From contig JAFGTT010000029.1 of NCBI GenBank assembly GCA_016933955.1, positions 1-37,966 of the forward strand: a DNA stretch of 37,966 nucleotides, read 5' to 3'. The notes beneath the pieces were generated by a model, which saw only the letters and a list, made by a program, of their open reading frames with translations, searched no databases and had not been told where the DNA came from. Positions 1,685-15,875 of this stretch are shown here, one piece after another. Origin of the DNA: Candidatus Zixiibacteriota bacterium. GTDB taxonomy: Bacteria; Zixibacteria; MSB-5A5; GN15; PGXB01. Made by a program: the position numbers and the translations under genes. Within the stretch, counting starts at the first letter, position 1. Each line of letters opens with the position of its first letter.

Positions 1685-2317
1685 ATGGAGAAGTGGAAAG
1701 GGTGGCGCAAGATGCGGTACGAAGCGGAACTGGATCCGGATTTCTCCCGGGAAATCGCCTCCATCCCGGGGGGCGACCAGCTCTACAGCTGTATCCAGTG
1801 CGGGACCTGTAGCGGAATGTGCCCGCTGAGTCCCAATATGGACTACACCCCCAGACAGATTATCGCCATGATCCGGGCCGGATTCAAAGGCGATGTTCTC
1901 AGCAGTTACACCACCTGGCTCTGCGCCTCGTGTTATTCCTGTACCGTCGAATGTCCCAAGGAAATTAAAATAACCGATATCATGTACGCCGCCAAACGGT
2001 TGGCCATCCGTGAGAAGGTTCACCCCAAGCGCTTTCCGACACCGGTTCTGGCCCGGGAATTTTTCCGCTCGGTGGAAAAGAACGGCCGCAGTACCGAAAG
2101 CCGCCTGCTGGTGAATCTGTACCTGAGGACCAATCCCTTTAAAATGTTCAAACAGACCGGCCTGGGTCTGAAACTCTGGATGAAAGGCCGGCTGGGAATC
2201 CGCAAGGAATCGATCAAACGGACCGGGGAACTGAGGAAAATATTCAAGGTCCTGGAAACCGAGCATATGGTCAAGACCAAAGATCAATTGGCCCGGCAGG
2301 AGGAGGTGTCGTCATGA
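1685..2317 (+). CDS. hdrC: heterodisulfide reductase subunit C (HdrC-like)
   Basis: This is the small iron-sulfur subunit that passes electrons from HdrA to HdrB in the HdrABC complex of the cytoplasm. The 210-residue protein has two classical [4Fe-4S] motifs, CxxCxxCxxxC: Cys36/39/42/46 (segment CIQCGTCSGMCP) and Cys80/83/86/90 (CASCYSCTVECP). This is the bacterial ferredoxin-like arrangement of HdrC. Length matches the family (about 180-210). ATG 1685 has a good ribosome site (AAAGGAG, 8 nt upstream). It is the first gene of a tight operon and overlaps hdrB by 4 nt. Identity is well supported by its neighbours hdrB and hdrA; a GlpC/DsrK-like iron-sulfur protein is the alternative family but does not fit this context. 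Confidence 0.92.
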   Translation: MEKWKGWRKMRYEAELDPDFSREIASIPGGDQLYSCIQCGTCSGMCPLSPNMDYTPRQIIAMIRAGFKGDVLSSYTTWLCASCYSCTVECPKEIKITDIMYAAKRLAIREKVHPKRFPTPVLAREFFRSVEKNGRSTESRLLVNLYLRTNPFKMFKQTGLGLKLWMKGRLGIRKESIKRTGELRKIFKVLETEHMVKTKDQLARQEEVSS

Positions 2318-3222
2318 GTTACCTGTACTATCCCGGATGTTCGCTGAAGAGCACCGGCCGGGCTTACGAGGAATCAATGCTGGCCGTGTTCGAACACCTG
2401 CAACTGCCGCTTGAGGAACTTGAGGACTGGAATTGCTGCGGCGCAACCGCCTATATGGCTATCAGCGAATTGAAAGCTTTTGCCCTGAGCGCCCGGAATT
2501 TCGCCCTGGCCGAAAAACAGGCCGGAGGAGCAGGTGAGATCAATATGGTCGTTCCCTGCGCAGCCTGCTATCTCGGGCTGAATAAAGCCTACCGTTATCT
2601 AAAAGAACATGCCGATCTTCAGAAAACCATCCTCAAGGCTCTCAAGGCGGCCGGGTTGTCCTATTCCGATCACCTGAGAATCCGTCACCCGCTCGATATT
2701 CTGGCCAATGATATCAGTCCCGACCGGATCAAAGAAGCGGTCAGCCGTCCCCTGGAGGGTCTCAAGGTGGCCTGTTATTACGGGTGCCAGATTGTCCGGC
2801 CGTACGCCGATTTCGATGACCAGCATGAACCGGTCATCATGGATAAACTGCTTCGCCTTCTGGGGGCCGAGGTGGTCGATTGGCCGTTGAAAACCCGCTG
2901 TTGCGGCGGTTCGTTGACCGGAACGGTGGAGGATGTCGGCTTGCGATTGAGTTATATCCTTCTTAAAGAAGCCAAAAAGCGGGGATGCGATGTTATTGCC
3001 ACCGCCTGCCCGTTGTGCCAGTTCAACCTGGAATGCTATCAGTCCCAGATCGGCCGTAAGTACGGCAACGGGAATGACATAGCGGTGGCTTATTTCACCC
3101 AGTTGATGGGCGCCGCTTTCGGTATCGCCGAGCATGATCTCGGCCTGCAGCGGCTGTTCGTGCCGCTCCATCTCCAGGGTACAGGTGATAAAGTGACGGG
3201 AGGTCAATATGTCAGCCGCTGA
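2314..3222 (+). CDS. hdrB: heterodisulfide reductase subunit B (HdrB-like)
   Basis: This is the catalytic subunit where disulfide-type substrates are reduced. The 302-residue protein carries two cysteine-rich CCG domains, each of the form C-x(31-39)-CC-x(35-39)-CxxC. The first has Cys9, Cys41-Cys42, Cys82/85; the second has Cys154 (and Cys158), Cys196-Cys197, Cys232/235. In the methanogen enzyme these two motifs hold a pair of non-cubane [4Fe-4S] clusters that cleave the CoM-S-S-CoB disulfide; all ligand positions appear present here. A bacterium without methanogenesis must use another acceptor, so the substrate is unknown. ATGA overlap with hdrC, and a 14-nt overlap with hdrA, show translational coupling. 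Confidence 0.93.
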   Translation: MSYLYYPGCSLKSTGRAYEESMLAVFEHLQLPLEELEDWNCCGATAYMAISELKAFALSARNFALAEKQAGGAGEINMVVPCAACYLGLNKAYRYLKEHADLQKTILKALKAAGLSYSDHLRIRHPLDILANDISPDRIKEAVSRPLEGLKVACYYGCQIVRPYADFDDQHEPVIMDKLLRLLGAEVVDWPLKTRCCGGSLTGTVEDVGLRLSYILLKEAKKRGCDVIATACPLCQFNLECYQSQIGRKYGNGNDIAVAYFTQLMGAAFGIAEHDLGLQRLFVPLHLQGTGDKVTGGQYVSR

Positions 3223-5212
3223 AAATAAAACCAATGGAATACCGAAAATCGGAGTTTATGTCTGTCACTGCGGGATAAATATCGCCGGTAAAGTCAATGT
3301 TCCCGAAGCGGTCGAGTTTGCCGCCAAGTTGCCGAATGTCGCGGTGGCGCGGGAATATAAATTCATGTGCTCCGATCCGGGCCAGGAAATCATCCAGAAT
3401 GATATTCGTGAAGGTTTAATCAATCGGGTGGTGGTCGCTTCCTGTTCGCCATTGATGCATGAAACAACCTTCCGTACCGCCATGGCGGCCGGGGGCGGAA
3501 ATCCGTTCCTGTTCCAGATGGCCAATATCCGCGAGCATGTCAGCTGGGTAACGCCCGATAAACCGGCCGGAACACAAAAAGCCAAGGCCCTGATTGCCGC
3601 GGCCGTGGAACGGGTTGCCCGTCATGTCCCGCTGGAAAAAACCAGGGTTCCGGTCAATCCCGATGTTCTCATTGTCGGCGGCGGTATCGCGGGAATTCAT
3701 GCCGCCTTGACTATCGCCAACGCCGGTAAAAAAGTGTACCTGGTAGAGAAAGAGCCGACCATCGGCGGCCATATGGCCAAGTTTGATAAGACCTTTCCCA
3801 CCCTGGATTGTTCCGCCTGTATTCTGACTCCCAAGATGTCATCGGTTCGGGCCCATCCCAATATCACCCTCTGGACCTATTCCGAAGTGGTCGGGGTCGA
3901 GGGTTTTGTGGGGAATTTTAGAATCCAGGTCAAACGGAAACCGCGCTATGTCGACGAAGACCTCTGCGTCGGTTGTCTGGAGTGTATCGAATCCTGCGTT
4001 TACAAGAAAGGGCGGATCAGCGACGAGTTCAATGTCGGCCTGAGCAAACGCAAACCCATTTATGTCCCGTTTCCTCAGGCGACCCCGCTGGTGGCCGTTA
4101 TCGATCCCGAATCATGTGCCGAGTTGAAAACCGGGAAATGCAAAAAACCATGTATGGATGCCTGTGAGCCCAAGGCCATCAATTTCAAACAGACCGAGGA
4201 AATAAAAGAAGTTTCCGCAGGAGCTATCATTCTGGCGACCGGGTTCCGGACCTTCGATGCCGCCCGGGTCAAACGCTATGGCTACGGCAAGTATCCCAAT
4301 GTTTATACCAGTCTGGAAGTGGAGCGGCTGGTGAATGCCGCCGGACCGACCGGGGGGGAAGTGATTATGTCGAACGGCGAGAAACCTAAAAAGGTCGGGA
4401 TTGTGCACTGTGTCGGTAGCCGCGATGCCCATACCAATAAATACTGCTCGCGAGTCTGCTGTATGTACTCTTTGAAGCTGGCCCACCTTATCAAGGAACG
4501 CACCGGGGCCGAAATCTATAACTTCTATATCGATATGCGGACCCCGGGGAAGGGGTATGAGGAGTTCTATGATCGTCTTCTCCAGGAAGATGTTCATTTT
4601 ATTCGGGGACGGGTGGCCGAAATCTCCGACTGGACCATGACACCTGAGGAAGAAGGCAAACTGATAATCCGGGCCGAGGATACTCTGGTCGGGGCGGTTC
4701 GGCGGATCCCGGTCGATATGGTGGTTCTGTCAGTCGGCCTGGAACCGCGAGCCGATGCCGACGAAGTGCGGCGGTTATTCAATATCAGTTGCAGTCATGA
4801 AGGCTGGTTTTTGGAACGACATCCTAAGCTGGCGCCGGTTTCAACCTTCACCGAAGGGGTGTATCTGGCCGGGGCCTGCCAGGGTCCCAAGGATATTCCC
4901 GACAGCGTTGCCCAGGCCGGGGCGGCCGCGGCCGAGGCCCTGGCCCTGATCGACAAGGGTCATGTCGAACTGGAACCAAACACGGCCTTCATCCGCGAAG
5001 AATTCTGTTCCGGTTGCAAAACCTGCCTGATGCTCTGTCCCTACAGCGCTATTTCGTTTAACAGCGAGAAGAACACCGCTGAGGTCAACGGCGCTCTTTG
5101 CAAGGGATGCGGAACCTGTGTCGCGGCCTGCCCGTCGGGCGCCCTGCAGCAGAATCTCTTCACCGATGAGCAGATTTATTGCGAAATTAAAGGAGTCGTG
5201 AATTATGTCTGA
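3209..5212 (+). CDS. hdrA: heterodisulfide reductase subunit A (HdrA-like)
   Basis: This is the FAD subunit, the site of electron bifurcation in HdrABC-MvhADG. In its 667 residues I see, in order: an N-terminal Cys-containing domain (CHCG near residue 20), a Rossmann FAD site VGGGIAG near 155, and the conserved LDCSACILTPKM segment. These are followed by a ferredoxin-like insert (CVGCLECIESC, about 253-265), a second dinucleotide-binding part (VGIVHCVGSRD), and a C-terminal two-cluster ferredoxin (CSGCKTCLMLCP and CKGCGTCVAACP, about 600-645). This is the full-length HdrA form, not a fusion with a hydrogenase subunit. It lies between hdrB and mvhD, overlapping both. Confidence 0.95.
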   Translation: MSAAENKTNGIPKIGVYVCHCGINIAGKVNVPEAVEFAAKLPNVAVAREYKFMCSDPGQEIIQNDIREGLINRVVVASCSPLMHETTFRTAMAAGGGNPFLFQMANIREHVSWVTPDKPAGTQKAKALIAAAVERVARHVPLEKTRVPVNPDVLIVGGGIAGIHAALTIANAGKKVYLVEKEPTIGGHMAKFDKTFPTLDCSACILTPKMSSVRAHPNITLWTYSEVVGVEGFVGNFRIQVKRKPRYVDEDLCVGCLECIESCVYKKGRISDEFNVGLSKRKPIYVPFPQATPLVAVIDPESCAELKTGKCKKPCMDACEPKAINFKQTEEIKEVSAGAIILATGFRTFDAARVKRYGYGKYPNVYTSLEVERLVNAAGPTGGEVIMSNGEKPKKVGIVHCVGSRDAHTNKYCSRVCCMYSLKLAHLIKERTGAEIYNFYIDMRTPGKGYEEFYDRLLQEDVHFIRGRVAEISDWTMTPEEEGKLIIRAEDTLVGAVRRIPVDMVVLSVGLEPRADADEVRRLFNISCSHEGWFLERHPKLAPVSTFTEGVYLAGACQGPKDIPDSVAQAGAAAAEALALIDKGHVELEPNTAFIREEFCSGCKTCLMLCPYSAISFNSEKNTAEVNGALCKGCGTCVAACPSGALQQNLFTDEQIYCEIKGVVNYV

Positions 5213-5708
5213 TAAAGATACGAACCAAAAACCATTCGAGCCTAGGATCGTGGCTTTCTTCTGCAACTGGTGTACTTACACCGCCGCCGATTTGGCTGGA
5301 ACGGCCCGTATGACCTATGCTCCCAACGTCCGGGTCATCCGGGTTATGTGTTCCGGGCGGCTCGATCCCCAGTTCATCCTGACTGCCCTGCGCCAGGGAG
5401 CCGATGGTGTTTTAATCGGCGGTTGCCATCCGGGTGACTGCCACTATCAGGAAGGCAACTACAAAGCCCTGAGGCGATTCACCCTCCTCAAACGGCTTCT
5501 CCGGGAGATGGGTATTGAAGACGAACGTGTCCAGTTGGAGTGGATTGCGGCCTCGGAAGGGGATAAGGTACAGAAAGTGATTAACCGTATCACCGAGGAT
5601 GTCCGTCGCCTGGGTCCCCTTCATCTCGAGCCCGAGGCACTGGACCGGGCCACCGAGGCCCTATTGCCCGATCAGACTCCGGCCGTGGCCGAAGGAGGTG
5701 CTTTATGA
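5205..5708 (+). CDS. mvhD: hydrogenase iron-sulfur subunit MvhD
   Basis: MvhD (FrhD/MvhD family, [2Fe-2S]) links the hydrogenase MvhAG to HdrA. The 167-residue protein shows the typical conserved Cys set: FFCNWCTYTAADLAG near the N-terminus, VMCSGRLDP in the middle, and GGCHPGDCHYQEGNY. The family is about 140-170 residues, so it is complete. It overlaps hdrA by 8 nt and mvhG by 4 nt, in the order expected for an HdrABC-MvhDGA complex. In some organisms MvhD is fused to HdrA; here it is separate. Confidence 0.93.
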   Translation: MSDKDTNQKPFEPRIVAFFCNWCTYTAADLAGTARMTYAPNVRVIRVMCSGRLDPQFILTALRQGADGVLIGGCHPGDCHYQEGNYKALRRFTLLKRLLREMGIEDERVQLEWIAASEGDKVQKVINRITEDVRRLGPLHLEPEALDRATEALLPDQTPAVAEGGAL

Positions 5709-6691
5709 GCAAGCCGAAAGTCGCCTTTTACTGGTGCGCTTCCTGCGGCGGATGCGAAGAAGCCGTAGTTGATCTGGCCGAGGATATTCTCAAGGTGGTC
5801 GGGGCCGTCGATATCGTTTTCTGGCCGGTGGCCCTGGATTTCAAACGGGAGGATGTCGAGGCTATGGCCGACAACTCCCTGGCCGTGGCTTTTATCAACG
5901 GCGCCATCCGCAGTTCCGAACAGCATGAAATGGTGGAACTGCTCCGCCGTAAGGCCGGTCTGGTGGTGGCCTTCGGCAGTTGCGCCCATCTGGGCGGGAT
6001 TCCCGGACTGGCCAATACCTTCCGACGGGCCGACCTGATCGATGAAGCCTATCATAAATCGCTGAGTGTTACCGATGGAAACGGAACCGAGCCTCTGGAA
6101 AAAACCGAGGTTCCTGAAGGGACCCTGACATTACCGAAACTCTGGGATACGGTCAAAACGCTCGACCAGGTTATCAAGGTCGATTATTATCTTCCGGGTT
6201 GCCCGCCGCCGGTCAATCTGATCAACGGGGCTATCGGGAGTATTCTTAAAAATGAACTTCCCCCGCCCGGATCGGTGCTGGCCCCGGATATGGCCCTGTG
6301 CGAGGAGTGCGAACGGCGGGCTACCAAGCCGGATAAAATGGCCCAGCGCGAATTTTTGAGACCCCATCAAATCAAAGCCGATCCCGAGAAATGCCTCCTG
6401 GCCCAGGGATTGCTGTGTCTGGGACCGGTAACCCGGAAAGGCTGCGGGGCTGCCTGTGTCAAGGGTAATATGCCTTGTACCGGCTGTATGGGACCCACCA
6501 GCCATGTGGTTGATTTCGGAACCAAAGCCCTGACTGCCATGGCTTCCTTGGTCGATTCCAACGATGATCGTGAAATCGCCGCTATCCTTGATCAGATTGC
6601 CGATCCGGTCGGGACCTTTTATCGATACAGTCTCCCGGCTTCATTGTTGCATCGGAGCTATCAGCCCGAACATGCGAAAGGAGAAAAATAA
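5705..6691 (+). CDS. mvhG: [NiFe] hydrogenase small subunit, MvhG type
   Basis: This is the small subunit of a group 3c (F420-non-reducing, Hdr-linked) [NiFe] hydrogenase; it carries the iron-sulfur relay from the active site. The 328-residue protein has the proximal-cluster motif CASCGGCEEAVVD at the N-terminus, GSCAHLGGIPG and PGCPPP (further ligands), and a C-terminal ferredoxin-like part rich in Cys (CEEC, then CLLAQGLLCLGPVTRKGCG and CVKGNMPCTGCMG). There is no twin-arginine signal peptide, which fits a cytoplasmic enzyme. It is 4-nt overlapped with mvhD and ends 1 nt into mvhA. Confidence 0.93.
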   Translation: MSKPKVAFYWCASCGGCEEAVVDLAEDILKVVGAVDIVFWPVALDFKREDVEAMADNSLAVAFINGAIRSSEQHEMVELLRRKAGLVVAFGSCAHLGGIPGLANTFRRADLIDEAYHKSLSVTDGNGTEPLEKTEVPEGTLTLPKLWDTVKTLDQVIKVDYYLPGCPPPVNLINGAIGSILKNELPPPGSVLAPDMALCEECERRATKPDKMAQREFLRPHQIKADPEKCLLAQGLLCLGPVTRKGCGAACVKGNMPCTGCMGPTSHVVDFGTKALTAMASLVDSNDDREIAAILDQIADPVGTFYRYSLPASLLHRSYQPEHAKGEK

Positions 6692-8154
6692 TGGCCCGTA
6701 AAATAACCATAGATCCGATTACCCGTCTTGAAGGCCACGGCAAGATCGATATCTTTTTGAACGATCAGGGTAACGTCGATCGGGCCTATTTCCAGGTTCC
6801 GGAATCGCGCGGTTTCGAACGTTTTGCCATCGGCCGCCCGGCCGAGGACATGCCGCAAATTACCTCCCGGATATGCGGCGTCTGTCCGACAGCCCATCAT
6901 ATGGCCGCGACCAGGGCTCTTGATGATCTCTATAAGGTTGATCCGCCTCCGGCGGCCAAAAAAGTCCGGGAATTGATGTATAATATCTTTTTCATGGAGG
7001 ATCATGCTCTCCATTTCTTTTTCCTGGCCGGACCCGATTTCGTGGTCGGCCCCCAGGCGCCCAAGGCCGAGCGGAATATTCTCGGCGTCCTCGGCAAGGT
7101 GGGCAATGAAATCGGCCTTAAAGTGATCGGGATGAGAAAACAGTGGCGTGAACTCATGAATCTTGTTATGGGGAAAGCCATTCACCCGGTTTTCGGATTA
7201 CCGGGAGGAATTTCCCGATCGATCACCAAAGAGGATTTACCCCGGTTTATCAAAACCGCCGATGAGTCGGTTGAGTTTGGCCAATTTGCCCTGAAGCTGT
7301 TCAATGATATCGTTCTTAAAAATCCCGATTACATGCATCATATAACCTCGGATACCTACACTCACAAGACCTACTATATGGGCCTGGTCGATAAAAACAA
7401 TCGGATCAATTTCTATGATGGCGATTTGCGGGTGGTGGGTCCCGACGGGAAGGAATACGTAAAATTCGGTGGCCGCCAATATCTTGATCATATGGATGAG
7501 CATGTCGAGCCCTGGAGTTATATTAAATTCCCGTACCTTAAAAACATCGGTTGGAAAGGCTTCGAGGACGGCGCCGACAGCGGCATTTTCGCCGTCGCGC
7601 CGCTGGCTCGGTTGAATGCCGCCGAGAGTATGGGCACCCCGCTGGCTCAGGAAAACTACGAGCAGTATTTCAAGATATGCGGCGGCAAACCGGTTCATTT
7701 TACGCTGGCGACCAGCTGGGCCCGGCTGATAGAAATGCTTTACAGCGCCGAACGCATGAAGGAACTGGTGGCTGATCCGGATATCATCAATCCCGATTTT
7801 CGGACTATTCCAACCAATACCCCATCAGAAGGTATTGGTGTCGTCGAGGCTCCCCGGGGGACTCTGATCCATCATTATCGAACTGATGATAACGGTATCA
7901 TAACCAAAGCCAATTTGATCGTGGCGACTCAGAACAATGCCGCGCGGATTGCCATGTCGGTCGATAAGGCCGCCCGTGGGCTGATTTCCGGTGGCAAAGT
8001 CGATGACGGCATTTTAAATATGGTCGAGATGGCTTTCCGGGCCTATGATCCCTGCCATGGATGTGGCACCCATGCTCTTCCGGGCGAGATGCCGCTGGTG
8101 GTGGATATCTATGATCGCGATCATAATTTGGTCCGGCAACTCCGGCAGGATTGA
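6691..8154 (+). CDS. mvhA: [NiFe] hydrogenase large subunit, MvhA type
   Basis: This is the catalytic subunit of the hydrogenase that feeds electrons from H2 into the Hdr complex. The 487-residue protein has ITRLEGHGKI at the N-terminus, the L1 motif RICGVCPTAHH (Ni ligands Cys62, Cys65) and the L2 motif DPCHGCGTH (Cys455, Cys458, His461). The chain continues 26 residues past His461, beginning ALPGE; family knowledge says a maturation protease removes this tail after nickel insertion, and that protease gene follows directly. All four nickel-binding cysteines are present, so it should be an active hydrogenase rather than a complex-I-like relic. Confidence 0.95.
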   Translation: MARKITIDPITRLEGHGKIDIFLNDQGNVDRAYFQVPESRGFERFAIGRPAEDMPQITSRICGVCPTAHHMAATRALDDLYKVDPPPAAKKVRELMYNIFFMEDHALHFFFLAGPDFVVGPQAPKAERNILGVLGKVGNEIGLKVIGMRKQWRELMNLVMGKAIHPVFGLPGGISRSITKEDLPRFIKTADESVEFGQFALKLFNDIVLKNPDYMHHITSDTYTHKTYYMGLVDKNNRINFYDGDLRVVGPDGKEYVKFGGRQYLDHMDEHVEPWSYIKFPYLKNIGWKGFEDGADSGIFAVAPLARLNAAESMGTPLAQENYEQYFKICGGKPVHFTLATSWARLIEMLYSAERMKELVADPDIINPDFRTIPTNTPSEGIGVVEAPRGTLIHHYRTDDNGIITKANLIVATQNNAARIAMSVDKAARGLISGGKVDDGILNMVEMAFRAYDPCHGCGTHALPGEMPLVVDIYDRDHNLVRQLRQD

Positions 8155-8157
8155 GTC

Positions 8158-8640
8158 ATGAAGCCGCTCATTCTGGGTTTGGGCAATGAATTGCTGTGTG
8201 ATGACGGCATCGGAATAATAATCACGCGGAAACTGCCGGGTGCAGTGGCCGAGGCCGCCGATGTGATCCGGAGCGGTCAACATGGGGTGGCCCTGCTGGA
8301 TTTGTTTCTAGGATACCGGCAGGCTATTATTATCGATGCCATCCAGACGGGAAAACATCCTCCGGGGACGGTTCTGGAACTGATCCCCGGAGATCTCAAC
8401 AATGTTTCAAGCCCCTCCCCGCATTATACCGGTATCCCGGAATTAATCCGTATTGCCCGCGAAATGCAGCTGGATTTCCCCGATGATATCAGAATTCTCG
8501 CGGTGGAGATTGAAGACCCCCTGACGGTGGGTGGCGAACTCACCCCGGCAGTGGAAAAATCAATCGAAAAAGTAATTCCCATAATCGAATCATATTTGTA
8601 TCATTGGCGGGTAAATGAGGTCTGTGAGAAACGATGCTAA
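8158..8640 (+). CDS. hydrogenase maturation protease
   Basis: This is a nickel-dependent endopeptidase of the HycI/HybD/HyaD (M52) family that trims the C-terminus of the large subunit. The 160-residue protein begins with ILGLGNELLCDDGIG, the family's LGxGNxLxxDDGxG signature, with the metal-binding acidic residue in the first part. A second acidic site lies in IIIDAIQTG. It starts 3 nt after the mvhA stop, so the likely target is MvhA with its 26-residue tail. Which gene symbol to use cannot be told from sequence alone. Confidence 0.88.
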   Translation: MKPLILGLGNELLCDDGIGIIITRKLPGAVAEAADVIRSGQHGVALLDLFLGYRQAIIIDAIQTGKHPPGTVLELIPGDLNNVSSPSPHYTGIPELIRIAREMQLDFPDDIRILAVEIEDPLTVGGELTPAVEKSIEKVIPIIESYLYHWRVNEVCEKRC

Positions 8641-8663: not shown

Positions 8664-9002
8664 ATGCATGAACTGCAGATTGCCGGCGAGGTGATAAAAA
8701 TCGCCAGGGCCGAAATGAAACGGCGACGTCTGACACGCATTTCCGAAATCGGTCTGGCCGTGGGCGCTCTGGCCGCGGTCGATCCCGATGCCCTGGCCTT
8801 CAGCTTCGAGGCTTCGGTGGTCGATACTCCTCTGGCCGGAAGTCGGTTGCATATTGATTTTATCCCGGTTGAGGGAACCTGCCGAAACTGCCGACGGGAT
8901 TTCAAGGTGTCGGATTATGTTTTTATCTGTCCCCACTGCGGATCCGGTGATATCCTGGTCCGGAGAGGTGAAGAACTTGACGTAACTTATATATTGGCCT
9001 AA
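8664..9002 (+). CDS. hypA: hydrogenase nickel incorporation protein HypA
   Basis: HypA delivers nickel to the hydrogenase large subunit together with HypB. The 112-residue protein begins MHELQIAGEV, preserving the MHE nickel-binding N-terminus, and ends with a zinc-ribbon: CRNC near residue 73 and CPHC about 18 residues later. Length is normal for the family (about 113-118). It lies 23 nt after the protease gene and directly before hypB. Only hypA and hypB are present here; hypC, hypD, hypE and hypF, needed for the Fe(CN)2CO group, must be elsewhere. Confidence 0.93.
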   Translation: MHELQIAGEVIKIARAEMKRRRLTRISEIGLAVGALAAVDPDALAFSFEASVVDTPLAGSRLHIDFIPVEGTCRNCRRDFKVSDYVFICPHCGSGDILVRRGEELDVTYILA

Positions 9003-9030
9003 GGAGTTGTGTAATGTTGGAGAATTCCTG

Positions 9031-9696
9031 ATGAGTAATAAAATCACCGTTGAAAAAAAAGTCCTGTCCGAAAATGACCGTCTGGCGGCCCAGATCCGGG
9101 CCAGGCTGGACAAGGAGAAAATCGTCACCCTTAATCTGGTCAGTTCCCCCGGATCGGGCAAAACTTCACTACTTGAACAGACATTGAAAAATCTCGGGGA
9201 TAAAATACCGATGGCGTTAATTGCCGGTGATGTTCAAACCGATAATGATGCCCGGCGGTTGACCGAGGCCGGCGGGCAGATCGTCCGGCCTATAATCACC
9301 GGCGGGGCCTGCCATCTCGATGCCCGGATGGTTCTGGCGGTCCTTGATGAACTTGATTTCAAAGGTGTCGATATTCTTTTTATCGAAAACGTCGGTAACC
9401 TGGTTTGTCCGTCGAGTTATGACCTGGGGGAAGATATGAAGGTTGTTCTTATCAGCACCACCGAGGGCGATGACAAACCGCTTAAATATCCTTCAATGTT
9501 CCGACGTTCCTCAACCCTGGTCATCAACAAAACCGATTTGCTGGGGCTGTCGGATTTTAATCTGGAACGGGTCCGGCAAAATGCGCTGAGTATTAACAGC
9601 GCCCTGGATATTTTCGAAATTTCCTGTAGAACCGGTCAGGGATTGGAGTTCTGGTTCCAATGGCTGGGCAAACTGGTAAAAGAGAAGAAAAAATAA
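9031..9696 (+). CDS. hypB: hydrogenase nickel incorporation GTPase HypB
   Basis: HypB is the GTPase that drives nickel insertion. P-loop SSPGSGKTS is near residue 45 of the chain, the metal/switch segment GGACHLDARM follows, then IENVGNLVCP and the guanine motif NKTD. It lacks the long His-rich N-terminal stretch found in some HypB proteins, so it probably does not store nickel. I chose ATG 9031 (221 residues), preceded by GGAG with about 7-nt spacing; an in-frame TTG at 9007 would add eight residues but has its ribosome site immediately adjacent. Located 28 nt after hypA. Confidence 0.93.
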   Translation: MSNKITVEKKVLSENDRLAAQIRARLDKEKIVTLNLVSSPGSGKTSLLEQTLKNLGDKIPMALIAGDVQTDNDARRLTEAGGQIVRPIITGGACHLDARMVLAVLDELDFKGVDILFIENVGNLVCPSSYDLGEDMKVVLISTTEGDDKPLKYPSMFRRSSTLVINKTDLLGLSDFNLERVRQNALSINSALDIFEISCRTGQGLEFWFQWLGKLVKEKKK

Positions 9697-9721: not shown

Positions 9722-10384
9722 ATGGTTATGCGCACTTTTACATACAAGGGGAAAAGTTACCAGGTTGATTACTATGGTTTTCTGTTGAAACCGGATGAAT
9801 GGGATGAAAATTTCGCCGAGGGTATGGCCCCTTATGCCGGGATTGAGAACGGCTTGACCGACGATCACTGGCGGGTTATCCGCTTTATTCGTAATACCTT
9901 CGAGCAGATCAACAAATGTCCTCTGGTGTATATTGCCTGCAAGAAAAATGATCTTGGGCTCGGTGACCTGAAACGGCTCTTTCCCTCCGGTTATCTGCGG
10001 GGGGCCTGCAAACTGTCCGGTGTGACCTACCGCGAGGGACATTTTCAAGAATTCTGGATTGAAGAACATATCGTTCATCATACCCGGATTTACGATAGAA
10101 AAAAATACGAAACCGATGCCCTGGGTTTCCTGATCAACCCCGGCGACTGGGATGAAAACTTCGCTATCCATAAAGCCAGTGAGCTGAAAATGCCGGATTT
10201 ACTGACTTCCAGACACTGGGATATAATCTACTACCTGCGACGCCAATTCGAGGTTTATAAAGAGATTCCGACGGTTTATCAGACCTGTGAAGACAATAAT
10301 CTGAGTCTGGAAGAACTGGAAAGGCTTTTCCCCGACGGTTACCATCGGGGGGCAGTTAAAATCTCCGGACTTCATGTCCGCTGA
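9722..10384 (+). CDS. tandem DsrC/TusE-like protein
   Basis: The 220-residue protein is two DsrC-like domains in a row. Repeat 1 (about 5-105) and repeat 2 (about 121-220) each show D-x2-GFL-x2-P-x-(E/D)-WDENFA, then a helix with (D/R)HW-x-(I/V)I, and the end motif LFP-x-GY-x-RGA-x-K-x-SG. DsrC proteins carry sulfur or form disulfides and dock to HdrB/DsrK-type subunits. DsrC has a penultimate Cys in the flexible C-terminal arm (CysA) and one about 11 residues earlier (CysB). Here repeat 1 keeps CysB (Cys96, GACKLSG), repeat 2 has Val212 instead, and neither has the C-terminal arm or CysA. Other Cys are 66, 73 and 189. It starts 25 nt after hypB, so probably belongs to the Hdr/Mvh operon; the ribosome site is weak. 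It could be a redox or scaffold partner of HdrB. Confidence 0.75.
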   Translation: MVMRTFTYKGKSYQVDYYGFLLKPDEWDENFAEGMAPYAGIENGLTDDHWRVIRFIRNTFEQINKCPLVYIACKKNDLGLGDLKRLFPSGYLRGACKLSGVTYREGHFQEFWIEEHIVHHTRIYDRKKYETDALGFLINPGDWDENFAIHKASELKMPDLLTSRHWDIIYYLRRQFEVYKEIPTVYQTCEDNNLSLEELERLFPDGYHRGAVKISGLHVR

Positions 10385-12764: not shown

Positions 12765-13477
12765 AGAAAAAAATTTTGATTGTTGAGGATGATGAACATA
12801 TCGCCGAGGGATTACGGCTTAATCTGGAAGCCCGGGGCTATGATACAGTGATAGCCGCCGATGGCCTGGCGGCTCTCCATTTCTGGCGAAATGAAGGCTT
12901 TGACCTGATTATTCTGGATATCATGTTACCCGGTAAAGACGGCCTTGATGTCTGCCGGACGATCAGGAGAGAAGCCGGACGAGTCCCGATTTTATTTCTG
13001 ACCGCCCGGGATCGAGAGGATGATCGGATTGCTGGGCTGGCGGCTGGGGGCGATGATTACCTGTCCAAGCCCTTTAATCTTGAGGAATTGATCCTGAGAA
13101 TCGCGGCCATGTTTAGACGTCAGGTTTGGTACGGCACGACCAGCTTGGAAAATAATCGAATTGAATTCGGCAGCTGTGCTGTGGATTTCGCATCATACAG
13201 GGCCAGAGGAGTGCATGGAAACACCGAACTTTCGCAGAAGGAATGCATGATAATGAAATTTCTGGCCGAACATGCCGGTGATGTCGTCACCCGCGATATG
13301 ATTCTCGATGCCATCTGGGGATATAACGTTTTCCCATCAAGTCGGACAGTGGATAATTTTATCGTCAGGTTGAGAAAAACTTTCGAAACCGATCCATCTC
13401 GACCGCGCTATCTGCACACCGTCCGTGGAGTCGGCTACCGTTTTACACCTGAGGGGGCTGGTAATGTCCAGTCATGA
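12761..13477 (+). CDS. OmpR/PhoB-family response regulator
   Basis: The receiver domain (1-120) has the acidic pair ED-D at 9-11, phosphorylation site Asp53 (ILDIMLPGKDG), Thr in FLTARD, and Lys in SKPFN. A winged-helix DNA-binding domain follows (about 140-238, ending VRGVGYRF). It is 238 residues, complete. It is coupled to the sensor kinase by a 4-nt overlap, and its last 14 nt overlap the start of the HemE-HemN gene, so the regulator and haem genes must share a transcript. Whether it controls its own operon is inference. Confidence 0.9.
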   Translation: MKKKILIVEDDEHIAEGLRLNLEARGYDTVIAADGLAALHFWRNEGFDLIILDIMLPGKDGLDVCRTIRREAGRVPILFLTARDREDDRIAGLAAGGDDYLSKPFNLEELILRIAAMFRRQVWYGTTSLENNRIEFGSCAVDFASYRARGVHGNTELSQKECMIMKFLAEHAGDVVTRDMILDAIWGYNVFPSSRTVDNFIVRLRKTFETDPSRPRYLHTVRGVGYRFTPEGAGNVQS

Positions 13478-15875
13478 TTTCATCGAAGCCGCCTATGGCC
13501 GGGTACATAAACGAGTCCCTATCTGGATCATGCGTCAGGCCGGCAGATATCTGCCTCAATACCAGGAAATAAAAAAAAATCATACTTTCTGGGAAATATG
13601 CCGCTCGCCGGAACTGATTGCCGAGGTGACGGCTCAGCCGGTGGAAATTTTGGGTATGGATGCGGCTATTTTGTTTTCGGATATATTGATTCCGCTGGAA
13701 CCGCTGGGGCTTAATGTTGATTTCACTGAAAAGGGCCCCCGACTTCACCCGACTATTGTCTCCCCGGATGATGTTGACCGCCTGAGACTCTATGACCCTG
13801 CTGCCGAACTGGATTATATTCTAAAGGGAATCGAAAGGACACGGAAACGACTGAACGGCTCGGTGCCGCTGATCGGTTTCTGCGGATCGCCGTTCACCAT
13901 GGCCTATTACGCGGTCGAGGGCAAAAGCTCTCCGGCTGACAATGAAATCAAACCGTTTATATTCAGATATCCCCGGGCGGCAGAGAAACTTCTTGACCTT
14001 CTGGCCGAATTGATCGGTCAATATCTCAGGGCTCAGATTCAGGCCGGGGTCCAGGCCGTACAATTATTCGACAGCCGTGGCGGGATTCTCTCTCAGGATG
14101 ATTATGCCCGGTTTTCACTGCCTTTCATAAAACGAGTATTTGATATCTGCCGAACCGAAGGAGTCCCCAGAATATTTTATGTTAACAACAGCAGGCCGTA
14201 TCTTAAACAGCTGGCCGATCTTGATTGTGAGGTTGTTGGTGTCGATTGGCGAACCGATCTTAACGAGGCCCTTGATGTCCTGAGGAGTAAAACGGTGCAG
14301 GGTAATCTTGATCCTCATATGCTCTATGCTCCCCCTGATGAACTGCGGGAGCAGACCCTGAAAATTCTCGATAAGACCAGGCACACTGACCGGTTTATTT
14401 TTAATCTCGGACACGGTATCACACCACAGACCCCGGTCGAGAATGTCCGCCTGCTGGTGGAAACCGTCCATGCTTATCGGGGCAATTTGGCCGCGTCCGG
14501 CGGTAATGTCAGCCGCCTGTTACTCTATAAGTACGATCGTCCCGGCCCGCGATATACCAGCTATCCCACCGCTCCGGAATGGACCGAGGAATATTCGGTT
14601 TCCGATTATAAGGCGGATCTGGAAACCGCGTCGAATAATCCGGAGCCGCTTTCAATGTATATCCACATACCCTTTTGCCGTTCCCGTTGTTTTTACTGCG
14701 GCTGTAATACCGTGGTCAGCCGCGACCCGGAGCGACCCGAGCAGTATCTCAATCTGGTGGACTGCGAGATCAGCAGGGTGGCCGGATTGCTTGACCGACG
14801 TAATCACCTTCAACAACTTCACTGGGGTGGCGGAACACCGACTTATCTGGCCGAACAACAGATCGCCCGGCTTTTTGAATCAATCACCAAACGGTTTTCA
14901 ACGGGATCCGGGGCCGAACTGGCAATAGAAGTCGATCCCCGGGTGACCACAACCGCCCAGATTGATCTGCTCGAAACGCTGGGATTTAACCGGATTTCTT
15001 TCGGTGTCCAGGATTTCACTTCTCGGGTTCAGCAGGCTATCGGTCGGGGGCAGACTCAGGCTCAAACCGTCGCTCTGTACGATTATTGCCGTAAGAAAGG
15101 ATTTAACGGTATTAATGTTGATCTGATTTACGGTCTGCCTTATCAAACGGTGGAGGATTTTTCCCGGACGATTTCACAGGTGATAGAAATGGGAGTTGAT
15201 CGGGTGGCGGTTTACAGCTTTGCCTTTCTTCCAACCGTTAAAACGCATCAACGTAAAATCGAGGAGACCAGTCTGCCCGGAGCTGATCTCAAATACGATC
15301 TCTTTGCCACCGCCGTAGAGCTTTTTCTGGCGGCAGGTTATATCCAGATCGGAATGGATCATTTCGCCCGACCCGATGACGAACTGGCGCGGGCCCTGGC
15401 CGATGGAACCCTGCATCGTAATTTCATGGGCTATACACCTCGAAAAACCACCGATATGGTCGGAATCGGGATGTCGGCGATCAGTGAATTAAGCGGCAGC
15501 TTCGCCCAGAATTATTCCGGTCTTGATAGTTACACTGAGGTAATCAGACATGATGGCCTGGCCACGTATCGCGGATGCCGTTTAAGCCGGGATGATCATA
15601 TCCGCCGCTGGAGTATTCTCTCGTTGATGTGTAATTTCCGTCTGGATTATAACGAACTGCAGAACAAATTCGGGGTTGCTTTCTCGGATTATTTCCCGAT
15701 TGAAAATAATGAACTTTCGGAGTTTATTGATGACGGTCTTCTGGAAAGAGATAAATCCGGGATAAAGATTACGCCCCGGGGACGGGTTTTTGTCCGAAAT
15801 ATCGCCATGATTTTCGACGCCTATTTGCGTCAGAAAAACCACGATAGAAAAGTGCAGTTTTCCCGGACCATATAG
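13464..15875 (+). CDS. HemE-HemN fusion, decarboxylase plus coprogen dehydrogenase
   Basis: This is one continuous 803-residue frame containing two haem enzymes. Residues 1-340 are uroporphyrinogen III decarboxylase (HemE): IMRQAGRYLPQY near 22, DAAILFSDIL, GFCGSPFTM, and the C-terminal GNLDP and FNLGHGI motifs. Residues ~350-803 are oxygen-independent coproporphyrinogen III dehydrogenase (HemN): the true HemN N-terminus YDRPGPRYTSYPTAP, and the radical-SAM site Cys405/409/412 plus Cys414 (HIPFCRSRCFYCGCN), then the GGGTPTYL SAM motif. Both halves are full length, so the fusion would perform two successive steps, uroporphyrinogen to protoporphyrinogen IX. The linker is only about 10 residues. 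ATG 13464 is preferred (GAGGGGG upstream, 14-nt overlap with the regulator); in-frame codons to 13425 are inside the regulator gene. Confidence 0.9.
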   Translation: MSSHDFIEAAYGRVHKRVPIWIMRQAGRYLPQYQEIKKNHTFWEICRSPELIAEVTAQPVEILGMDAAILFSDILIPLEPLGLNVDFTEKGPRLHPTIVSPDDVDRLRLYDPAAELDYILKGIERTRKRLNGSVPLIGFCGSPFTMAYYAVEGKSSPADNEIKPFIFRYPRAAEKLLDLLAELIGQYLRAQIQAGVQAVQLFDSRGGILSQDDYARFSLPFIKRVFDICRTEGVPRIFYVNNSRPYLKQLADLDCEVVGVDWRTDLNEALDVLRSKTVQGNLDPHMLYAPPDELREQTLKILDKTRHTDRFIFNLGHGITPQTPVENVRLLVETVHAYRGNLAASGGNVSRLLLYKYDRPGPRYTSYPTAPEWTEEYSVSDYKADLETASNNPEPLSMYIHIPFCRSRCFYCGCNTVVSRDPERPEQYLNLVDCEISRVAGLLDRRNHLQQLHWGGGTPTYLAEQQIARLFESITKRFSTGSGAELAIEVDPRVTTTAQIDLLETLGFNRISFGVQDFTSRVQQAIGRGQTQAQTVALYDYCRKKGFNGINVDLIYGLPYQTVEDFSRTISQVIEMGVDRVAVYSFAFLPTVKTHQRKIEETSLPGADLKYDLFATAVELFLAAGYIQIGMDHFARPDDELARALADGTLHRNFMGYTPRKTTDMVGIGMSAISELSGSFAQNYSGLDSYTEVIRHDGLATYRGCRLSRDDHIRRWSILSLMCNFRLDYNELQNKFGVAFSDYFPIENNELSEFIDDGLLERDKSGIKITPRGRVFVRNIAMIFDAYLRQKNHDRKVQFSRTI

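Follow-up and report, generated by a model that had tools for sequence, protein, structure and literature searches.

The 37,966-nucleotide stretch of Candidatus Zixiibacteriota DNA analyzed here (hereafter the window) contains, at the end of a hydrogenase operon, a gene for a protein in which the DsrC domain occurs twice. Dissimilatory sulfur metabolism has DsrC as its hub. Both halves of the tandem protein have the DsrC fold and lack the C-terminal arm with which DsrC and TusE bind sulfur, and its homologues keep four cysteines nearly invariant, occur mostly in hosts that carry dsrA, and are repeatedly linked to genes for group-3 [NiFe]-hydrogenases and for hydrogenase maturation (hyp). They form a widespread protein family of sulfur bacteria that appears to be undescribed. 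We propose, with a probability of a little under four in ten, that tandem DsrC is a cysteine-based sensor or adaptor of sulfur state in anaerobes that use the Dsr pathway.

A protein composed of two DsrC domains

The tandem gene (9722–10384, forward strand) encodes 220 amino acids, with an ATG at 9728 as a possible start. Domain 1 (9743–10027, forward) and domain 2 (10094–10375, forward) each match the Pfam DsrC profile (PF04358) on their own, scoring 71.0 and 61.6 bits against a cut-off of 24.9 bits. The entire protein scores 129.7 bits against the same profile and 103.7 bits against NCBIfam TIGR03342 (TusE/DsrC/DsvC; cut-off 53.5 bits). An AlphaFold2 model built with 29 homologues (mean pLDDT 85; the linker at residues 106–115 is not resolved) shows the DsrC fold. 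Foldseek searches of the PDB with this model gave significant E-values for DsrC-family structures only (3or1_C, 2v4j_C, and 1sau), the first two of which superpose on the model at 0.9–1.0 Å over approximately 97 columns; DNA-binding proteins were absent from the significant matches. By profile score and fold, the tandem protein is a member of the TusE/DsrC/DsvC family. These results uphold an earlier, sequence-only reading of the window, which had called the product a two-domain DsrC-like protein and had pointed to the motifs GFL-P-WDENFA and LFP-GY-RGA-K-SG, both of which are common to the two halves. The best relatives from other genera are 57–69% identical over their full length. The possibility of a passenger or chance DsrC-like ORF is ruled out by the scores of the two halves, which lie far over the cut-off, and by conservation in many phyla.

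Conserved cysteines and the missing arm

Comparison of C-terminal ends locates the difference from canonical DsrC. The canonical DsrC of the same genome ends in GACKVAGLPKPTGCV, domain 1 of the tandem protein in RGACKLSGVTYREG, and domain 2 in RGAVKISGLHVR. Domain 1 retains CysB (Cys96) and lacks CysA; domain 2 has neither, the CysB position being occupied by Val, as it is in most of the 106 distinct tandem copies that we analyzed. The assignments made from the sequence at the outset, with the CysA arm missing from both halves and CysB present in the first half only, are confirmed by these ends. The CysA arm is found in none of the rows of a 39-protein tandem alignment. On the deepest branch of the family (L072, L073, L074), CysB is present in domain 2 as well (RGACRAAG).

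Four cysteines are conserved across the 106 proteins, and they are exactly the four that the sequence-only reading had singled out. All of their codons lie on the forward strand: Cys66 (9917–9919, a position obtained by arithmetic from 9722) is conserved in 101 of the 106 proteins, Cys73 (9938–9940) in 98, Cys96, the equivalent of DsrC CysB (10007–10009), in all 106, and Cys189 of domain 2 (10286–10288), which aligns with Cys73 of domain 1, in 103. No further cysteine column in these proteins exceeds 8%. Four near-invariant cysteines rule out a cysteine-free scaffold. The median pI of the tandem proteins is 6.2.

In A. vinosum DsrC, sulfur is bound at CysA only and CysB is irrelevant to that reaction (PMC3397948), which makes a simple DsrC-like carrier role unlikely for the tandem protein. 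Judged by its cysteines, the protein is neither a functional DsrC nor a TusE. Strong constraint acts on another set of cysteines, while the arm that binds sulfur in DsrC and TusE is missing.

Distribution and origin of the tandem family

A scan of named genomes located the two-domain protein in at least 11 named phyla, among them Thermodesulfobacteriota, Acidobacteriota, Chloroflexota, Planctomycetota, Ignavibacteriota, Electryoneota, and Calditrichota, with at most five intact copies per genome, the number found in G010. Within Zixiibacteriota, 34 of 132 genomes carry it. The genome of the window, whose nearest named relatives are Zixiibacteriota MAGs, contains three tandem genes (in the window and on contigs C14 and C26) together with a broken DsrC fragment. 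A DsrC second domain that survives only as a truncated and decayed fragment (L008; G000 contig C26, 76406–76546) lies upstream of an intact tandem gene. Elsewhere, one protein contains three DsrC domains (L118, 8917–10008), and three consecutive tandem DsrC genes follow mvhA-hycI (L113, 8959–11098). The genomes are mostly fragmented MAGs with ORFs obtained by mechanical calling, and genes are named by their resemblance to reference proteins in profile or BLAST comparisons; neighboring ORFs shorter than about 100 amino acids are often spurious.

In a tree of individual domains, all of the tandem domains lie apart from single DsrC proteins (99% SH-aLRT), and domain 2 forms one group while domain 1 needs two changes; the alignment is short (96 columns) and many forks of this tree are unresolved. 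Because of this grouping, the simplest reading of the family's origin is a single duplication and fusion of a DsrC domain. The same short tree does not support separate fusions lineage by lineage. Within the open-access literature, we found no description of a tandem or two-domain DsrC. So far, the duplicated form seems to go only under the family-wide label "sulfur relay protein".

Association with dissimilatory sulfite reductase

Across the genomes sampled, tandem DsrC mostly accompanies dsrA. In Zixiibacteriota, dsrA is present in 28 of 34 genomes with a tandem gene versus 22 of 98 without one (Fisher p = 8e-10 with kinship ignored; related genomes are non-independent, which makes p-values of this kind optimistic). 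The named genomes with a tandem gene, a few of which are again Zixiibacteriota, contain dsrA in 41 of 47 cases, 39 of them above the cut-off. Among relatives of an Acidobacterium, dsrA occurs in 3 of 3 tandem genomes versus 16 of 145 others; the corresponding figures for relatives of Desulforhabdus are 13 of 14 versus 77 of 134. These figures from several sampled groups therefore mark tandem DsrC as an accessory that a minority of dsr organisms possess, and genome-wide, dsrA is a stronger correlate of its presence than the Hdr complex. The co-occurrence parallels a published rule according to which CysB is confined, few exceptions aside, to organisms that bear DsrAB (PMC3397948).

In the window's own genome, dsrA is present together with an apparent dsr cluster that includes dsrMK, with canonical DsrC on contig C7. 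In a Chloroflexota bin (L197), a tandem copy lies immediately upstream of dsrMKJOP-dsrAB-dsrC, the small genes of which were assigned by position and sequence. An apparent loss of canonical DsrC in G004 was withdrawn; the dsr stretch of that genome is masked with N.

Linkage to group-3 hydrogenases

The tandem gene is the last of a series that begins with genes for an HdrC-like 4Fe-4S subunit (1685–2317), an HdrB-like CCG subunit (2314–3222), and an HdrA-like flavoprotein of 667 amino acids (3209–5212). There follow mvhD (FlpD; 5205–5708), mvhG for the hydrogenase small subunit (5705–6691), mvhA for a [NiFe]-hydrogenase large subunit of group 3c type (6691–8154), a hycI/hupD-type hydrogenase maturation protease gene (8158–8640), hypA (8664–9002), and hypB (9007–9696, with a likely start at 9028), all on the forward strand. 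The order originally proposed for this operon is correct, and 25 bp separate hypB from the tandem gene directly downstream.

Linkage of this kind recurs. Of the 65 tandem genes in Zixiibacteriota, 20 have a gene for a group-3 hydrogenase large subunit within 10 kb, compared with 0.53 expected from random placement; group-3 hydrogenases were counted with the MvhA protein as query, as PF00374 at a limit of 1e-20 under-counts them. These 20 genes are spread over 13 genomes and involve 13 distinct hydrogenase loci. When the neighbors of all 106 copies were clustered, a hydrogenase small subunit was found near 20 of them and a large subunit near 18. The tandem gene directly follows hypB in the window and in L103, L044, L062, L106, and L206, hypE in L050, L051, L108, and L203, and hycI in L112, L113, and L068; in L208 it lies between hycI and hypF. 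At L044, the hypB that it follows ends an hdrCBA-mvhG-hycI-hypB series, and a group-3b hydrogenase operon lies on the other side. The linked hydrogenases are of the Mvh and 3b types, and the link extends to other phyla, with examples in Desulfobacteraceae (L136), Holophagae (L152), and Ignavibacteria (L178). Of the 19 rows in the window's clade (98% support), 11 are hydrogenase-linked. On the protein tree, the pattern of linkage needs 14 changes, of which at least 7 are forced by starred branches, against a mean of 22.5 after shuffling; the need for 14 changes indicates several gains or losses of linkage.

The sequence-only reading had suggested, as one possibility, a partner or sulfur/disulfide carrier for the bacterial Hdr complex. 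The survey supports a genomic link to mvh and hyp genes, but not a partnership specific to Hdr. HdrA genes are near only 4 of the 106 distinct copies, linked 3b operons occur without Hdr, and approximately 20 Zixiibacteriota genomes contain an Mvh-type hydrogenase without tandem DsrC. Thus, the link is to group-3 hydrogenases generally and is not Hdr-specific. Group-3 hydrogenase matches are absent from 8 of the 34 tandem-bearing genomes, and many tandem copies lie far from any hydrogenase.

Other gene neighborhoods and fusions

One-third of the tandem copies (33 of 106) have no co-directional neighbor within 150 bp. Of the 104 immediate co-directional neighbors, 8 are histidine kinases, at least 5 are response regulators, 3 are Rrf2 proteins, 3 are APS kinases, and at least 6 belong to the cobW/HypB family; the regulators come partly from near-identical relatives. 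A control set of 53 genes located at least 6 genes away contains 2 response regulators and, within the families listed for it, no member of the others. The orientation of tandem genes shows no bias to divergent gene pairs. We found no convincing upstream motif shared by tandem genes, k-mer and palindrome counts having returned nothing beyond A/T-rich words and a few low-count repeats.

Several arrangements around tandem and related genes involve other protein classes. In L073 (2950–7339), L074 (9658–12973), and L205 (4841–8038), an operon encodes a single DsrC protein with CysA only (RGAYRLAGLPRPSGCL type), DsrM-like and DsrK-like proteins, and a tandem protein with CysB in both halves; the key cysteines are split across two proteins. 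The same CysA-only DsrC/DsrM-like/DsrK-like operon occurs in L199, L200, and L201 without a tandem gene. In Chloroflexota (L194, 5801–7857; L195, 6361–8409), a DsrM-like gene precedes one for a DsrK-like CCG protein with a C-terminal DsrC domain that has neither cysteine, and the next gene encodes a DsrC-like protein without the CysA arm. An Acidobacterium locus (L147, 742–2610) encodes a fusion of an Aminotran_5 domain of the cysteine desulfurase type with two DsrC domains, located after a member of an Rrf2-type regulator cluster. A cysteine desulfurase–SelD-like (AIRS) fusion, IscS-SelD, is encoded near tandem DsrC in L009 (10404–12644), and similarly in L057, L063, and L066; this adjacency or proximity is seen in the window's bacterial family only. 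Directly upstream of the tandem gene in L136 (7702–8997) is a fusion of a response regulator receiver domain to a FocA-family (formate/nitrite transporter) domain. The window also contains an 816-amino acid ORF (13425–15875) in which a HemE (uroporphyrinogen decarboxylase)-like region is followed by a HemN-type radical SAM region, a possible heme-pathway fusion.

Possible functions of tandem DsrC

The mechanism that we tentatively favor begins with a DsrC domain that would have been duplicated once and fused, with loss of the C-terminal carrier arm and its CysA. Cys96 (CysB-type), Cys66 and Cys73 of domain 1, and Cys189 of domain 2 would react with persulfides or disulfides, such as those that canonical DsrC handles. 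The protein may then act on the enzymes encoded by adjacent genes or on the expression of these enzymes; the targets within the window's clade would be group-3 [NiFe]-hydrogenases and the Hyp maturation genes. We infer that its output is regulatory or adaptor-like and does not consist of bulk electron or sulfur transfer. The multiplicity of copies, the variety of their neighbors, and the regulator genes nearby argue for a sensor or adaptor, and the different neighbors of paralogues, together with the 33 copies that have no co-directional neighbor, make the protein unlike an obligate subunit. Against this reading stand the pI and the structural matches, neither of which hints at DNA binding, the absence of a convincing shared upstream motif, the unbiased gene orientation, and the near-identical relatives that supply part of the regulator neighbors. 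A sensor or adaptor fits the observations slightly better than does a carrier for Hdr, which is possible and not favored.

Nearly as likely is that the tandem protein is a redox or sulfur partner, that is, a protein disulfide or persulfide substrate reduced with electrons from H2, which would dock on HdrB of Hdr-Mvh, on the 3b sulfhydrogenase, and on CCG proteins of the DsrK type. The basis for this assessment is that enzymes reducing S–S bonds or sulfur recur nearby: Hdr-Mvh in the window, L044, L062, L112, L113, and L178, a group-3b hydrogenase in L044, L050, L059, L103, L136, and L208, and DsrM/DsrK-like pairs in L073, L074, and L205. In addition, the DsrK-like–DsrC fusion of L194 indicates that DsrC-fold domains devoid of CysA do associate with CCG proteins, and canonical DsrC interacts with FlxABCD-HdrABC, as cited in PMC10504309 and PMC10553843. 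The L147 desulfurase fusion and the DsrK/DsrM-like neighbors of the deepest branch fit a partner just as well as a sensor. However, the CysA arm occurs in no aligned copy, many Mvh operons are without a tandem gene, HdrA is near so few copies, and one-third of the copies are without an operon partner.

Considerably less probable is a split heterodisulfide, in which CysB (Cys96) would come from the tandem protein and CysA from canonical or CysA-only DsrC. An intermolecular disulfide or trisulfide would then hold the sulfur and be reduced by H2-linked enzymes (Hdr-Mvh, group-3b sulfhydrogenase) or by DsrMK-like complexes. We consider it unlikely, to a slightly greater degree, that the tandem protein is a sulfur relay, taking up persulfide from a cysteine desulfurase and delivering it to a target in biosynthesis in the way that TusE serves tRNA thiolation. 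The natural desulfurase fusion of L147 and the IscS-SelD genes that adjoin or lie near tandem DsrC would suit such a relay, but TusE acts via the CysA that is missing here, the fusion is single, the IscS-SelD link is limited to one bacterial family, and the linkage to dsrA and hydrogenases would be left unexplained. Least likely is a role in the biogenesis of group-3 [NiFe]-hydrogenases, whose maturation the protein would assist as a chaperone or scaffold, since the positions directly after hypB or hypE, or between hycI and hypF, in the window's clade and some other copies are offset by the approximately 20 genomes of the phylum that mature Mvh hydrogenases without tandem DsrC, by the location of most paralogues away from hyp genes, and by the 8 tandem-bearing genomes without a group-3 match.

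Sulfur respiration and hydrogen metabolism may be coupled through tandem DsrC. If sulfur state is reported or carried to hydrogenases, the protein would connect Dsr sulfur chemistry directly, at the molecular level, with the cytoplasmic H2 metabolism of these mostly uncultured sulfite and sulfate reducers, and it bears on the question of which substrate bacterial Hdr complexes reduce. The protein could be tested in Desulforhabdus sp. TSK (L156), which carries tandem DsrC and is not labelled as a MAG.

Comparison with known DsrC and TusE systems

Cysteine-less regulatory homologues of DsrC have been named "RspA". Unlike these proteins, which have lost the DsrC cysteines, tandem DsrC keeps four; no open-access text on "RspA" was found. 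Tandem DsrC shares with DsrC (dissimilatory sulfite reductase gamma/DsvC) the fold and family score of both halves, the CysB position of domain 1 with its flanking GAC-K-AG motif, and hosts that mostly bear dsrAB. Functional DsrC, in contrast, is a single domain of approximately 105–115 amino acids, whereas the tandem protein has two domains in 220 amino acids, lacks the CysA arm, reads GY[LH]RGA in place of GPAKGA, and has Cys66, Cys73, and Cys189 as extra conserved cysteines. It also occupies a separate clade of the domain tree and coexists with canonical DsrC in the same genome (L011). CysB, which precedes CysA by approximately 11 residues in the DsrC carrier, has its counterpart in Cys96, whereas the arm with the penultimate CysA has none.

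In TusE, CysA is retained and CysB is usually missing (PMC3397948). The tandem protein has the fold and NCBIfam family in common with TusE; however, it is duplicated and shows the opposite cysteine pattern, with CysB and no CysA. A further parallel is the DsrC/FlxABCD-HdrABC system of Desulfovibrio vulgaris, in which a DsrC-family protein is likewise linked to an HdrABC-type complex. The partner there is an ordinary single-domain DsrC with two cysteines, whereas tandem DsrC is a two-domain, CysB-only protein found in Mvh and 3b operons. The DsrC-like proteins encoded beside DsrM/DsrK-like pairs resemble tandem DsrC in their altered cysteine sets, and the deepest tandem branch (L073, L074, L205) resides in the same operons as CysA-only DsrC. 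Unlike the tandem protein, these DsrC-like proteins are single-domain or fused to a CCG subunit, and the single ones are CysA-only or without CysA.
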